The notes beneath the pieces are model-generated. The model did not search any database. It was not told the origin of the DNA and saw only the letters and a program-made list of their open reading frames with translations. The position numbers and the translations under genes were made by a program. DNA of 64,000 bases, taken from Wenzhouxiangella marina. Lineage in GTDB: Bacteria > Pseudomonadota > Gammaproteobacteria > Xanthomonadales > Wenzhouxiangellaceae. Position 1 is the first letter of the stretch. The number at the start of each line of letters is the position of its first letter. This document shows positions 6,404 to 34,734 of this stretch, piece by piece. The stretch spans positions 2,536,501-2,600,500 of the forward strand of contig NZ_CP012154.1 of NCBI RefSeq assembly GCF_001187785.1, written 5' to 3'.

Positions 6404-8582
<2,179 letters not shown>

Positions 8583-8724
8583 GCGTAGCTTCAGCCCATG
8601 GCCGATATCGAAAACGAACAGCATCTTAGTGTAAACCGAGAAGGCCGCTGAACGTCGTGAAATCGGACCTTCTCCCTCGCCGGGTCTGGCATTCGTCGCC
8701 CGCTTGCGGCAGACTTGAGCGCCC

Positions 8725-9741
8725 ATGGATCCGACCCTTCCCATCATCGATCTGCACAGCCACCTGCTCCCCGAGCAGCTGCCGGCCATGGACGCGCCCG
8801 GATTTCCGCGTCTGGAAGGCAATGGCGAGCGCCGCAACATCACCATCGATGGGAAATTCTTCCGCGCCGTCGATCGCACGGCCTGGGACATCGAGCATCG
8901 CATCGAACACTATGCGCAGGCCGGTGTCGGCATCCAGGTGGTCTGCACCGTGCCCGTGCTGTTCAGCTATCACCTGCCCGCCGGACCGGCCTCGCAGTTC
9001 GCCCGGGCGCTCAATGACCAGATCGCCGAACAGCAGCAACGCCACCCGAAGCACGTGATCGCACTGGGCACCCTGCCCCTGCAGGACACGGAACTGGCCA
9101 TCAACGAGGCCGAGCATCTGGCCCACGACCTCGGCCTGCCCGGCGTCCAGATCGGCTCGAACATCAACGACCGCAATCTCGACGATCCGGAATTGTTCGA
9201 GGTGTTCGCGGCCTGTCAGGACCTGGGCCTGTCGGTGCTGGTCCATCCCTGGAACATGATGGGCAAGGAACACATGCCCGACTACTGGCTGCCCTGGCTG
9301 GTCGGCATGCCCGCCGAGCTGTCCCGCGCCATCTGCTCGATGATCTTCGGCGGCGTGCTGGAACGACTCCCCGATCTGCGCGTCTGCTTCGCCCACGGTG
9401 GCGGATCCTTCCCGTTCACGATCGGGCGCATCGAGCACGGCTTCAATATGCGCCCGGACCTGGTGGCGACGAGGAACCCGGTCAATCCGCGCGACTACCT
9501 CGGCCGCTTCTGGGTCGATTCGGTCACCCACGACCCGAAAGCCCTGGCCTATCTGATCGAGGTCATGGGCGAGGATCGGGTGACCCTGGGCACCGACTAC
9601 CCGTTCCCCCTCGGCGAGCAGGACCCCGGCTCGACGATCCGTGCCCTGGACCCCGCCCCCGAGCTGCGCGAGAAGCTGTTCTGGCGCAACGCGCTGGAAT
9701 TTCTCGATCTGTCACCGGAACGCTTCGGGCTGGGCGAATGA
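8725..9741 (+). CDS. 2-amino-3-carboxymuconate-6-semialdehyde decarboxylase
   Basis: 338 residues of the amidohydrolase-2 family. ACMSD removes CO2 from the ring-cleavage product of 3-hydroxyanthranilate, steering carbon to catabolism rather than quinolinate/NAD. Metal ligands expected for the family are visible: H11 and H13 in DLHSHLLP, H174 in VHPWNMMG, H224 in FAHGGG and D291 in LGTDYPFPLGE. The Trp/Asn-rich HPWNMMG segment is characteristic of ACMSD. It opens the kynurenine gene run and overlaps the next gene by ATGA. No tryptophan dioxygenase or 3-hydroxyanthranilate dioxygenase gene lies in this window, so the pathway must be completed elsewhere. Confidence 0.9.
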   Translation: MDPTLPIIDLHSHLLPEQLPAMDAPGFPRLEGNGERRNITIDGKFFRAVDRTAWDIEHRIEHYAQAGVGIQVVCTVPVLFSYHLPAGPASQFARALNDQIAEQQQRHPKHVIALGTLPLQDTELAINEAEHLAHDLGLPGVQIGSNINDRNLDDPELFEVFAACQDLGLSVLVHPWNMMGKEHMPDYWLPWLVGMPAELSRAICSMIFGGVLERLPDLRVCFAHGGGSFPFTIGRIEHGFNMRPDLVATRNPVNPRDYLGRFWVDSVTHDPKALAYLIEVMGEDRVTLGTDYPFPLGEQDPGSTIRALDPAPELREKLFWRNALEFLDLSPERFGLGE

Positions 9742-30709: not shown

Positions 30710-30985
30710 CTAAAGACTATCCGCCAGGGCCCGGAGGAAGGCGGTCACATCGGCCTCGGCGCGCGGACGGTCGACCCTGAAACGCTCGACCAGACGATCC
30801 GCCAGCTGCCCCTCGTCGCGGCAGCCAGCCTTCAGCGCCTCCACCAGCACCAGGCCGGTGGCATTGAGGCTGATCAAGGCCTCGGCATCCTGATCCAGCA
30901 GCACGCCGCTGCCGTCATCGAGCACGGTCAGCGCCAGGCGACCGGCGTCGAAGGCGTCGGCGATGGTGACAGCAGCGGTGGTCAT
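30710..30985 (-). CDS. PqqD-like peptide/protein chaperone (HPr-rel-A type)
   Basis: 91 residues with the PqqD winged-helix pattern: LDDGSGVLLDQDAEALISLN, then LNATGLVLVEAL and a helical tail with a DVTAFLRAL end. PqqD proteins present peptide substrates to modifying enzymes. The ATG 30985 (MTTAAVTIADAFD) is chosen; an in-frame ATG 60 bases upstream adds a proline-rich, unlikely start. It is divergent from the HprK-like kinase across a 141-base gap with a 9-bp dyad. The pairing matches what has been called the HPr-rel-A system. No radical SAM or precursor peptide is nearby. Confidence 0.75.
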   Translation of the reverse strand: MTTAAVTIADAFDAGRLALTVLDDGSGVLLDQDAEALISLNATGLVLVEALKAGCRDEGQLADRLVERFRVDRPRAEADVTAFLRALADSL

Positions 30986-31034
30986 GGCGTCCTCGTTCCA
31001 TTGCGGGGTCCTGGGGCCCGGATTATCCCGCAGG

Positions 31035-31068
31035 CTGGCCCGCATTGTTCATGAATACAGCGGGCCAG
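31035..31068. promoter_or_regulatory. 9-bp dyad between PqqD-like and kinase genes
   Basis: CTGGCCCGC (31035-31043) is repeated inverted as GCGGGCCAG (31060-31068) with 16 bases between. It is central in the divergent gap, so it could be an operator or an mRNA hairpin in either leader. No regulator is identified. Confidence 0.45.
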
Positions 31069-31126: not shown

Positions 31127-32107
31127 TTGCGGATTGAAGCCCTGAACCGCCGCTCGGTCTGCCTTCTCAAGACCGAGGCCTTCGATCTCACGCTGCGCAT
31201 CGAAGGCCTGGACCCGGCAGAAATGGCAGCCCTCCTGGGCGCCCCGGGGCCGCGACCGGACTGGCAGAAGATCAGCACACGCGGTCCGATCAGGATCGGG
31301 TTCGACGAGGAATTCGACGATCCCGGCGCGCTGCCGTCCTGGCCAGGGGATCCGGCCACTCGAATCCCCCTCGAAGATGGCTGGGTCGAACTGCGCAGTG
31401 ATCAGCCGGGCATCGCCGGGATCGATCCGGAGGCCGGGCGAGCGAACCGCCTGCTGCCCAGCGGCCTCCACCTGTTGCTGGCCCAGCAATGGGCGCGGCA
31501 GGGTCTGTTCCCATTGCATGCGGCTGCGCTGTCCTGGAAGGGTCAGGGTCTGCTCCTGCTCGGTGACCAGGGCGCCGGAAAATCCACCCTTGTCCTGGCC
31601 GCCATGCAACTCGGCGCCACGGTCGTCTCCGACGACTGGCTGCTGGTCGGACAGGACCGGGCGCAGGGCTGGCGTGCCGAACGCCTGCGCCAGTTTCTCA
31701 TGTTCCGCCCGGGCGCCGCCTTCGACCGGCTTGCCAGCGGCCTGGGAGAACGATGGCTCCAGAACGAAGACGGTCGCCGAGTCCTTCCCCTCCCCAGCGA
31801 TGACCCGGCCTGGCCGGCACAGCTGGGCCTGGATCGTGCCGTCTGGCTGGACGCTCCAGCGCAGGAACGTCCATTGATCAGTCACTTCGACCGCATCGAT
31901 CAGGCCCGACTGCTGGCCGCACTGGTCGGCGCCGCCATGCCGCGGCTGCTCGGTGCGGACTTCCCTCACGAACGGACGCGCTTGTTGCAGGGCTTCCAGG
32001 CCCTGGTCGCCCGGCTGCCCGCGCGCCGCGTCTGCACCGGGCAGGATTTGCTGGAACACCCTGACCGACTCTTCGACCGCCTGATCGAGGACGAGGATCG
32101 GACATGA
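31127..32107 (+). CDS. HprK-related kinase (orphan, HPr-rel-A type)
   Basis: 326 residues. A Walker A loop GDQGAGKST (146-154) is preceded by the HprK-like PLHAAAL segment (H131) and followed by TVVSDDWLL (168-170 SDD), matching the HPr kinase/phosphorylase nucleotide core. The C-terminal half is divergent, and no HPr or PTS gene is in the window. The target is unknown. The open frame has a stop at 31097 and no ATG or GTG before TTG 31127, so TTG is the likely start, with only GAGAG as a weak ribosome site. TGA overlaps the ATG of the next gene, linking it to a glycosyltransferase. Confidence 0.75.
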   Translation: MRIEALNRRSVCLLKTEAFDLTLRIEGLDPAEMAALLGAPGPRPDWQKISTRGPIRIGFDEEFDDPGALPSWPGDPATRIPLEDGWVELRSDQPGIAGIDPEAGRANRLLPSGLHLLLAQQWARQGLFPLHAAALSWKGQGLLLLGDQGAGKSTLVLAAMQLGATVVSDDWLLVGQDRAQGWRAERLRQFLMFRPGAAFDRLASGLGERWLQNEDGRRVLPLPSDDPAWPAQLGLDRAVWLDAPAQERPLISHFDRIDQARLLAALVGAAMPRLLGADFPHERTRLLQGFQALVARLPARRVCTGQDLLEHPDRLFDRLIEDEDRT

Positions 32108-33183
32108 AGCCCGTTGTCTGGCTGCTGTCAGCCTACCGCGCCGATTCACACGCCCAATGGGTCGACTGGCTGACCGGCCGGATCCAGACCGTGGACTGGC
32201 GCGTTCGCGAGCTGCCCGGCCGCCACTTCGCCTGGCGCATTCGCTCCAACCCATTGAGCTGGCTGGACGATCTTCCCGAGGGCGTTCCGGACCTGATCCT
32301 GGCCAGCTCGATGGTGGATCTCGCCACCCTCAAAGGCCTGCATCCACGCCTGGCCCGGGTGCCGAGCTGGTACTACTTCCATGAGAACCAGCTCGCCTAC
32401 CCGATCCTGCCCGGCCAGGTCGAAAGCATCGAACCGGCCATGGTCCAGCTCTACGGGGCCCTGGCCGCCCAGCGCTGCCTGTTCAACAGCCGCCACAACC
32501 GCGACAGCTTCCTGGCCGGCCTGGAGGCCCTGTCGCGGCGCCTGCCCGAGCCTTGGCCCGATCAACTGGTCGCCCGACTGCAGGCCCGATCGGAGATTCT
32601 GCCGGTGCCGGTCGAGCCCATCGCTGCCGGACCGACGCGCGATCCGGGCCTGATGCTCTGGAACCACCGCTGGGAGCACGACAAACAGCCCGATCGCTTC
32701 ACTGACGCAGTCATCGAACTCGCCGATTCGGGCCTCGATTTCCGCCTCGCCCTGCTGGGGCGGCGGACGCGGCGAACGCCCCCCGCCCTGACCCGCCTGC
32801 GCGAACGCCTCGGGAGCCGCATCGAAGTCGACGGCTTCGTCGACCGTTCGGCCTACGCGCACTGGCTGGGTCGAGCCGGACTGGTGGTCAGCACGGCCCT
32901 GCACGAATTCCAGGGCATCAGCCTGCTCGAAGCAGTCAGCGCCGGAGCCAGGCCGATCGTGCCGGACGCGCTCTGCTATCCGGAGCAGTATCCGGCCGAT
33001 TGCCGCTACGATCCGGCACGAAACGGTGCCCTGACCGAGGCCCTGGCTCGCCAGTTGGCGCAGCCGAAGCCCGCACCCGCCGTGGATGACTGGCTGGCCA
33101 GCAGCACCGGGCCGCGCTGGCAGGAGGTGCTAGGAACCCTCCTCCGAGGGCTTCAGCAGGGCCCTGGGACTCAAGCCCAGTAG
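32104..33183 (+). CDS. tRNA-queuosine alpha-mannosyltransferase-like GT-B enzyme
   Basis: 359 residues. The N-terminal half matches the DUF3524/QTMAN family: LLSAYRADSHAQWVDWL, LPGRHFAWRIRSNPLSW, ILASSMVDLATLKGLHP and YFHENQLAYP (91-100). The C-terminal half has NHRWEHDK (187-194) and the GT-B nucleotide-sugar loop HEFQGISLLEAVSAG (267-281). The animal homologue (GTDC1/QTMAN) adds mannose from GDP-mannose to queuosine in tRNA-Asp. By family, this protein would glycosylate queuosine-34; donor and product in this bacterium are inferred. The window also has queA and tgt, 24 kb away. It overlaps the kinase gene by ATGA and the convergent murJ gene by 54 bases. Confidence 0.85.
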   Translation: MKPVVWLLSAYRADSHAQWVDWLTGRIQTVDWRVRELPGRHFAWRIRSNPLSWLDDLPEGVPDLILASSMVDLATLKGLHPRLARVPSWYYFHENQLAYPILPGQVESIEPAMVQLYGALAAQRCLFNSRHNRDSFLAGLEALSRRLPEPWPDQLVARLQARSEILPVPVEPIAAGPTRDPGLMLWNHRWEHDKQPDRFTDAVIELADSGLDFRLALLGRRTRRTPPALTRLRERLGSRIEVDGFVDRSAYAHWLGRAGLVVSTALHEFQGISLLEAVSAGARPIVPDALCYPEQYPADCRYDPARNGALTEALARQLAQPKPAPAVDDWLASSTGPRWQEVLGTLLRGLQQGPGTQAQ

Positions 33184-34734
33184 CAGAAGCGTCAGGCCGT
33201 ACACCAGGCCGCCGGCGATCACACCCACCCCCAACCAGGCCAGGCGAGTCCAGAGCCCGAACTCGAGCAGGGCCTCTGCCGAGGGCATCAGCCAGGCCAC
33301 CAGGCCGCCCATGACCAGGCTGGCCAGGGCCACCCGGAGCCACTGGATGCCCGGCAGGGTCGGTGCCAGATCCAGCTTGCGCAGGCCTCGCCAGAGCAGG
33401 CCCGCATTGAGCCAGGCCGAGCTCGCCGAGGCCAGGGCCAGGCCCACGTGAACGCCGGGCTGCGCCGCCAGGGTCTCGAACAGACCGCCGGAGAAATCCC
33501 AGCCCGACAACCAGGCCGCCAGGAGCAGCACGTAGGTCACGTTGAGCAGCATATTGGTCGACAGGGCGATGATCGCGATCTTGACCGGTGTGGCCGTGTC
33601 CTGGCGGGAGAAGTAGCCGGGCGCCAGGATCTTCACGCCCATGAAGGCCGGCAAGCCGAGGCAGTAGACCATCAGGGCCAGCGCCGCCATGCGCGCGCTC
33701 TCGGGGTCGAAGGCCCCGTACTGGAACAGGGCGATGATGACCGGCTCGGCCAGCACCGCCAGGCCGACGGCGGCAGGAATCCCGACCACCACGCCGAGCA
33801 GCAGCGCCCAGTCCATCGTTCGGCGGAAGCGCCCCGACTGGCCACCCGCGTGCAGGCCGGACAGGGCCGGCAGGATGACCGTCGACAGGGCCACGCCGAA
33901 CAGGCCCAGGGGGAACTCCATCATCCGATCCGCGTAATAGAGCCAGGAGATCGAACCCGTGAAAAGCAGCGAGGCGATCAGGACGTCGAGCAGCAGGCTG
34001 ATCTGGGCGACCGAGGAGCCGAACAGGGTCGGCACCATCAGCCGCAGGATCCGGCGCACGCCCGGGTGCCGGAAATCGGGCCGGGGCCTGGGCAGCACCC
34101 CATGCCGAGCCAGGGAAGGCAGAAGGAAGCCGAGTTGCAGCAGCCCGGCCACCAGCACGCCCCAGGCCAGGGCCTTGATCGGCTCCTCGAACTGGGCGCT
34201 GAAGACCACGGCGGCAACGATCAGGGAAACGTTCAGCAGCGCTGGCGTCAGCGCCGGCAGGGCAAAGCGGCCCAGGGTGTTGAGAATGCCGCCGGCCAGG
34301 GCCGTCAGGGCGATCAGCATCAGGTACGGGAAGGTCACCCGCAGCATTTCGGTGGCCAGGGCGAACTGCGCCGGATTCTCCCGAAAGCCGGGCGCGAACA
34401 GGCTGATCACCCAGGGAGCCGCCAGCACGCCGATCGCCGTGATCACCAGGAGCACCGCCAGCAGCACGCCGGTCGTGGCGTCGATCAGGGAGCGAAGCGC
34501 TTCGTGATCGCCTCGCTCCTTGTACTCGGACAGCACCGGGACGAAGGCCAGGGAAAACGAGCCCTCGGCAAACAGGCGACGCAGGAAATTGGGAATCTTG
34601 AAGGCGGCCACGAAGGCGTCGGTCGCCGCCGAGGCCCCGAACCAGCGCGCGATGACGATGTCACGAACCAGTCCCAGCAGACGCGAAACCAGGGTCATCG
34701 AGCCGAAACTGAACACCGAGCGTAGCAGATTCAC
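33130..34734 (-). CDS. murJ: Lipid II flippase MurJ
   Basis: 534 residues with about fourteen membrane helices of the MVF/MATE-like superfamily. The N-terminus SMTLVSRLLGLVRDIVIARW and FAEGSFSLAFVPVLSEYKERG are typical MurJ, and the central SISWLYYADRMMEFPLGLFG block carries conserved arginine and acidic residues of the lipid II cavity. It flips lipid II across the inner membrane for peptidoglycan synthesis. It is divergent from rpsT, a common gammaproteobacterial arrangement. Its 3' end overlaps the queuosine transferase-like gene. Confidence 0.96.
   Translation of the reverse strand: MNLLRSVFSFGSMTLVSRLLGLVRDIVIARWFGASAATDAFVAAFKIPNFLRRLFAEGSFSLAFVPVLSEYKERGDHEALRSLIDATTGVLLAVLLVITAIGVLAAPWVISLFAPGFRENPAQFALATEMLRVTFPYLMLIALTALAGGILNTLGRFALPALTPALLNVSLIVAAVVFSAQFEEPIKALAWGVLVAGLLQLGFLLPSLARHGVLPRPRPDFRHPGVRRILRLMVPTLFGSSVAQISLLLDVLIASLLFTGSISWLYYADRMMEFPLGLFGVALSTVILPALSGLHAGGQSGRFRRTMDWALLLGVVVGIPAAVGLAVLAEPVIIALFQYGAFDPESARMAALALMVYCLGLPAFMGVKILAPGYFSRQDTATPVKIAIIALSTNMLLNVTYVLLLAAWLSGWDFSGGLFETLAAQPGVHVGLALASASSAWLNAGLLWRGLRKLDLAPTLPGIQWLRVALASLVMGGLVAWLMPSAEALLEFGLWTRLAWLGVGVIAGGLVYGLTLLLLGLSPRALLKPSEEGS

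Follow-up and report, generated by a model that had tools for sequence, protein, structure and literature searches.

The gene at 32104..33183 (+) of the window (the whole 64,000-nucleotide stretch of Wenzhouxiangella marina DNA that was analysed) encodes a glycosyltransferase, P0001, of the family that includes the animal tRNA-queuosine mannosyltransferase QTMAN. It thus adds a member to a known family, and what is put forward for its function in bacteria is a proposal from sequence: P0001 is probably, with a likelihood that we place near 0.6, a hexosyltransferase acting on the wobble base queuosine, Q34. Mannose from GDP-mannose would be the most likely sugar and donor, and, like the acceptor and the product, these are predicted; the strict animal reaction on tRNA-Asp is less probable than hexose transfer to Q34 in general. 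To our knowledge glycosylated queuosine is known from animals only. QTMAN itself was reportedly identified in a 2023 study, and a literature search by titles and abstract openings, in journals open without subscription, found no tested bacterial QTMAN among the papers listed.

Architecture, conserved residues and fold

The reading frame runs uninterrupted from ATG to stop and specifies 359 amino acids. The first-pass annotation had called the product a queuosine mannosyltransferase look-alike, and at the level of family this is borne out by hmmscan. The N-terminal QTMAN_N domain (PF12038; residues 5-170, 32116..32613, +) covers profile positions 2-168 of 168 at 172 bits against a cut-off of 25 (1.3e-50), and is followed by a GT4 domain (residues 182-294, 32647..32985, +) matched by Glyco_trans_1_4 over residues 191-289 at 30.7 bits (cut-off 27) and by Glycos_transf_1 over residues 182-294 at 26.3 bits, slightly below its cut-off of 26.4. 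Both motifs quoted earlier, YFHENQLAYP and ILASSMVDLATLKGLHP, are present in the translation, the likeness to animal QTMAN/GTDC1 being by way of the Pfam model and its name. Because the PF12038 profile matches nothing in 14 control genomes, one of which is E. coli, a species that has GT4s of the ordinary kind, the family match is not one of chance. NCBIfam lacks a family model for P0001, its sole match being to a GT4 equivalog at 17.8 bits (cut-off 400), and a defence-gene library likewise holds no family for it. At its 3′ end the gene shares 54 bases (33130-33183) with a convergent murJ ORF (33130-34734, -; 436 bits to TIGR01695).

Alignment of 48 sequences, P0001 and 47 of the 80 best loci, leaves 25 columns invariant in all 48, including S15-H16, R40, W44-R45, Y91, H93-E94-N95-Q96, N128-S129, N132 and G271. 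The YFHENQ motif of the acceptor-side domain (residues 91-96, 32374..32391, +) is thereby fixed at Y91, H93, E94, N95 and Q96. In WNHRWEHDK (residues 186-194, 32659..32685, +), W186, H188, R189, W190, E191 and D193 are found in 48/48 and K194 in 47/48; R189 and K194 are presumably the GT4 positions that bind the donor diphosphate. EX7E, the motif of retaining GT4 enzymes, lies at E268-E276 (32905..32931, +), with position 268 being E in 36 and D in 12 of the 48, and E276 present in 45. As read from the alignment, the GT4 and family residues of P0001 are intact.

The AlphaFold2 model is a confident GT-B fold (mean pLDDT 93.7, pTM 0.91), for which Foldseek returns GT-B enzymes of the GT4/GT5 kind, 313 matches at E <= 0.001, the best being GlgM (6tvp; E 1.1e-10, TM 0.62). 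A PDB sequence search picks up meaningful similarity over the C-terminal part only, beginning at about position 154-197, and so yielded no solved structure that has a QTMAN_N-like domain.

The 130 rows of a quick maximum-likelihood tree were P0001, 124 of the 127 loci submitted (three were removed by a length and stop filter) and five E. coli K-12 GT4s. The proteins grouping with P0001 come from its own genus (support 94), and its position is within the Wenzhouxiangella/Haliea/Balneolales section of the family. Placement with other GT4 enzymes had earlier been named as a point against the look-alike proposal; the 125 family rows stand apart from the five E. coli K-12 enzymes, but the fork that separates them is drawn open and has a support of 92, and the outgroup branches are long, which makes the split a weak test.

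In the scheme that we favour, P0001 would be a bacterial QTMAN relative and a retaining enzyme of the GT-B fold (GT4). Its C-terminal domain would bind a nucleotide sugar, most likely GDP-mannose, its QTMAN_N domain would hold the anticodon loop of a Q-tRNA, and one of the cyclopentenediol hydroxyls of Q34 would receive the hexose.

Occurrence of the family and genomic setting

The distribution of the family in bacteria is patchy. Among the best 80 of 374 relatives retained, the closest named are from Wenzhouxiangella MAGs, Haliea and its kin, Spiribacter and Balneolales MAGs. Additional relatives occur in Marinicella, Microbulbifer, Myxococcota, Planctomycetota, Acidobacteriota and Krumholzibacteriota. 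In the host genus 8 of 13 genomes carry it (several of the others are incomplete), in the host order outside the genus 1 of 8, and in a sample of the host class 19 of 281. In a phylum sample built around the L061 genome, whose record is titled Planctomycetota, 56 of 214 genomes have it; in at least three of these (G409, G439, G454) the copy is fragmentary or split. One class carrier, G042 (locus L105), is alone among them in having a stop codon in its copy, which is possibly decaying. Viral sequences gave 25 pattern matches, none of them a relative, and a plasmid search gave no match. N-terminal fusions of about 300 residues in L028 and L067 were considered and rejected: the extensions have no Pfam match and resemble neither each other nor other loci, and so are read as over-long starts.

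Immediately upstream, and overlapping the glycosyltransferase gene by ATGA at 32104-32107, is an ORF (31127..32107, +) for a P-loop protein that is weakly HprK-like, scoring 23.7 bits to Hpr_kinase_C (cut-off 33.3) and at best 40.7 in NCBIfam (cut-off 200). Divergent from it is a PqqD-family ORF (30710-31045, -; 47.3 bits, cut-off 23.4), and PqqD/HprK-like divergent pairs resemble peptide-modification cassettes. The first-pass annotation had pointed to the translational overlap as giving the glycosyltransferase an unusual partner. The four-base overlap is real and is what speaks for a functional pair, but the partner role does not hold up: tblastn finds the HprK-like ORF at 0 of 127 related loci (98, then 29 more), some of which have short upstream flanks, and in the same-genus genome G286, where the segment corresponding to the window from 22441 to pqqD is syntenic, the glycosyltransferase gene directly follows pqqD with the HprK-like ORF absent. 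At five other same-genus loci the gene is found in other contexts. Given the absence from related loci and from the syntenic one, the ATGA is taken as a local arrangement, and we consider a functional pairing very improbable indeed.

Nor is there a wider setting that recurs. Comparison of the window with 98 loci shows neighbours shared within a single clade at most; a conserved operon for the family was accordingly rejected, and for the same reason there is no tie of these loci to polysaccharide clusters.

Acceptor and donor supply, GluQRS and the choice of tRNA

Two of the genes that make queuosine had been called in the window itself, and both stand: tgt (6404..7621, -; TIGR00430, 546.5 bits, cut-off 306.75) and queA (7563..8903, -, with an over-long start as listed; NF001140, 470.6 bits, cut-off 324). 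Elsewhere in the genome is QueG (515.9 bits, cut-off 200), and in terms of genes the late Q pathway is complete in the host. A gene of the GDP-mannose synthesis family TIGR01479 (1.1e-163) is a possible source of the donor. From its gene content, then, the host appears able to make both the presumed acceptor, Q-tRNA, and the presumed donor, GDP-mannose.

How far the family as a whole keeps company with these genes is another matter. A tgt match is present in 19/19 class carriers and 56/56 carriers of the Planctomycetota sample, but with tgt nearly universal in both samples (273/281 and 211/214 genomes) its co-occurrence carries no weight; the genomes that lack it (8 and 3, respectively) are all without the family and are too few to count. 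QueG is above cut-off in 168 of the 214 genomes of the Planctomycetota sample, the QueH search having covered 47 genomes with QueG below cut-off where the tally implies 46. Ten of the 56 carriers have no QueG above cut-off and eight of these ten have QueH, while among non-carriers QueH is found in 30 of 37 QueG-poor genomes. Both are absent from 2/56 carriers vs 7/158 non-carriers (Fisher p 1.0), and there is no association of QueG/QueH with the family in these counts, which, like the other co-occurrence statistics here, are raw genome counts uncorrected for relatedness or genome size. A match to TIGR01479 is seen in 19/19 class carriers vs 207/262 other genomes (p 0.03), and one above cut-off in 17/19 vs 191/262 (p 0.17), 13 of the 17 by listed score and four inferred from E-values.

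A hand-picked set of 39 carriers, made up of all class carriers but G042 (18 of 19), four relatives and 17 of the 80 loci, has QueG above cut-off in 32. Of the seven that lack it, one has QueH, and in two the QueG match is partial, at about 180 bits; these two apart, most are MAGs. G059, G286, G301 and G312 have the family with neither QueG nor QueH, and count against a strict need for queuosine unless the genomes are incomplete or another reductase is at work. G301 (locus L027) is a MAG record of a single contig, with QueG at 27 bits and no recognisable QueH.

The host also encodes a stand-alone GluQRS of 302 residues, adjoining accA (NF004314, 365.4 bits, cut-off 256; TIGR03838, 338.3 bits, cut-off 276.7). 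GluQRS modifies Q34 of tRNA-Asp. The tRNA-Asp reading of the first-pass annotation, taken over from the animal enzyme, is weakened by the presence of an enzyme for the same base of the same tRNA, and 17 of the 19 class carriers share it. Were Q34 of tRNA-Asp the target of both enzymes, mutual exclusion would be expected; it was looked for and not seen. GluQRS is above cut-off in 17/19 class carriers vs 163/262 other genomes (p 0.023), 15 of the 17 by listed score and G125 and G213 (about 1e-92) inferred from E-values; in G059 and G123 it falls slightly below cut-off. This excess is not read as attraction, since the class carriers all have genomes of at least 2.3 Mb and GluQRS loss is reported to accompany small genomes (PMC11332805).

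With mutual exclusion set aside, the two enzymes would share tRNA-Asp, or act on different hydroxyls, or the bacterial enzyme would prefer another Q-tRNA. Animals offer a precedent for a change of acceptor: in Aedes aegypti the tRNA to which manQ was mapped is tRNA-Tyr (PMC11705514), whereas in other animals the Q that carries mannose, at its allylic 3-OH, is that of tRNA-Asp (PMC12518689, PMC8654956).

One gene arrangement is suggestive in the other direction. At 15 of 99 loci (L031, L048, L051, L054, L055, L057, L059, L065, L069, L072, L073, L075, L076, L079 and L081) the gene comes after a Ser/Thr protein kinase gene, with a gap of -37 to 242 bases, and is divergent from aspS, which encodes aspartyl-tRNA synthetase. 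This would point to tRNA-Asp; being confined to one clade, mostly Marinicella, it is to be scored as one evolutionary event.

Other substrates, consequences and comparison with known systems

A glycosyltransferase that keeps just the fold and motifs of the family while acting on a polysaccharide, a lipid or a small molecule would also account for a catalytic half that is that of an ordinary GT4, for nearest solved structures whose substrates are maltose-1-phosphate/glycogen (GlgM), selenium sugars (SenB) or LPS, for the many Q-making genomes that do without the family (it is missing from 262 of the 281 in the class sample), and for those carriers with no recognisable QueG or QueH. Such a substrate is nevertheless unlikely in our estimation, given an N-terminal domain whose HENQ is fully conserved and which is absent from the 14 control genomes, and given that no polysaccharide-cluster context is conserved. 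Another departure from the animal reaction would retain tRNA as the substrate and change the rest, the target being epoxyqueuosine, glutamyl-Q or another base, or the sugar being other than a hexose. Carriers without QueG and QueH would make epoxyqueuosine only, and the co-residence of GluQRS in 17 of 19 class carriers also speaks for such a departure; yet QueG or QueH is present in 54 of the 56 carriers of the Planctomycetota sample, and genes absent from MAGs may reflect gaps in assembly, so that we hold this departure to be distinctly improbable.

Hexose transfer to Q34 is the preferred reading of P0001. The domain architecture, the motifs and the host genes for Q-pathway enzymes and for an enzyme of GDP-mannose synthesis are observed, as is the predicted fold; Q-tRNA as acceptor, mannose as sugar, the particular tRNA and a role in decoding are what we infer from them. 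A broader picture is offered tentatively, at somewhat short of even confidence: scattered bacteria (Gammaproteobacteria, Myxococcota, Planctomycetota, Balneolota and others) would bear glycosylated wobble queuosine and, where GluQRS is also present, the decorations would be divided among the four Q-tRNAs or between two hydroxyls. Were this so, wobble-base identity in bacteria would gain a second layer. If the proposal for P0001 is correct, sugar-decorated queuosine is made by bacteria, manQ is no longer to be seen as an animal modification, and the origin of the animal QTMAN gene becomes a question. There would also be a simple genetic system for the effect of a wobble-base sugar on decoding, and for how QTMAN and GluQRS share one base within a cell.

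Of the systems with which P0001 may be compared, animal QTMAN (GTDC1), the tRNA-queuosine alpha-mannosyltransferase, is like it in having a QTMAN_N domain and then a GT4 domain. P0001 differs in being bacterial, in its length of 359 aa, in a host that makes Q de novo and has GluQRS, and in that its activity is a predicted one. GluQRS (YadB), also encoded in the host genome, is predicted to meet P0001 at the same base, Q34, but is a glutamyl-tRNA synthetase paralogue of unrelated fold that adds glutamate. The GT4 enzymes WaaG, GlgM and SenB have in common with P0001 the GT-B fold, the EX7E motif and the C-terminal domain; they are without QTMAN_N, and the sequence similarity of P0001 to solved structures is in the C-terminal part only.
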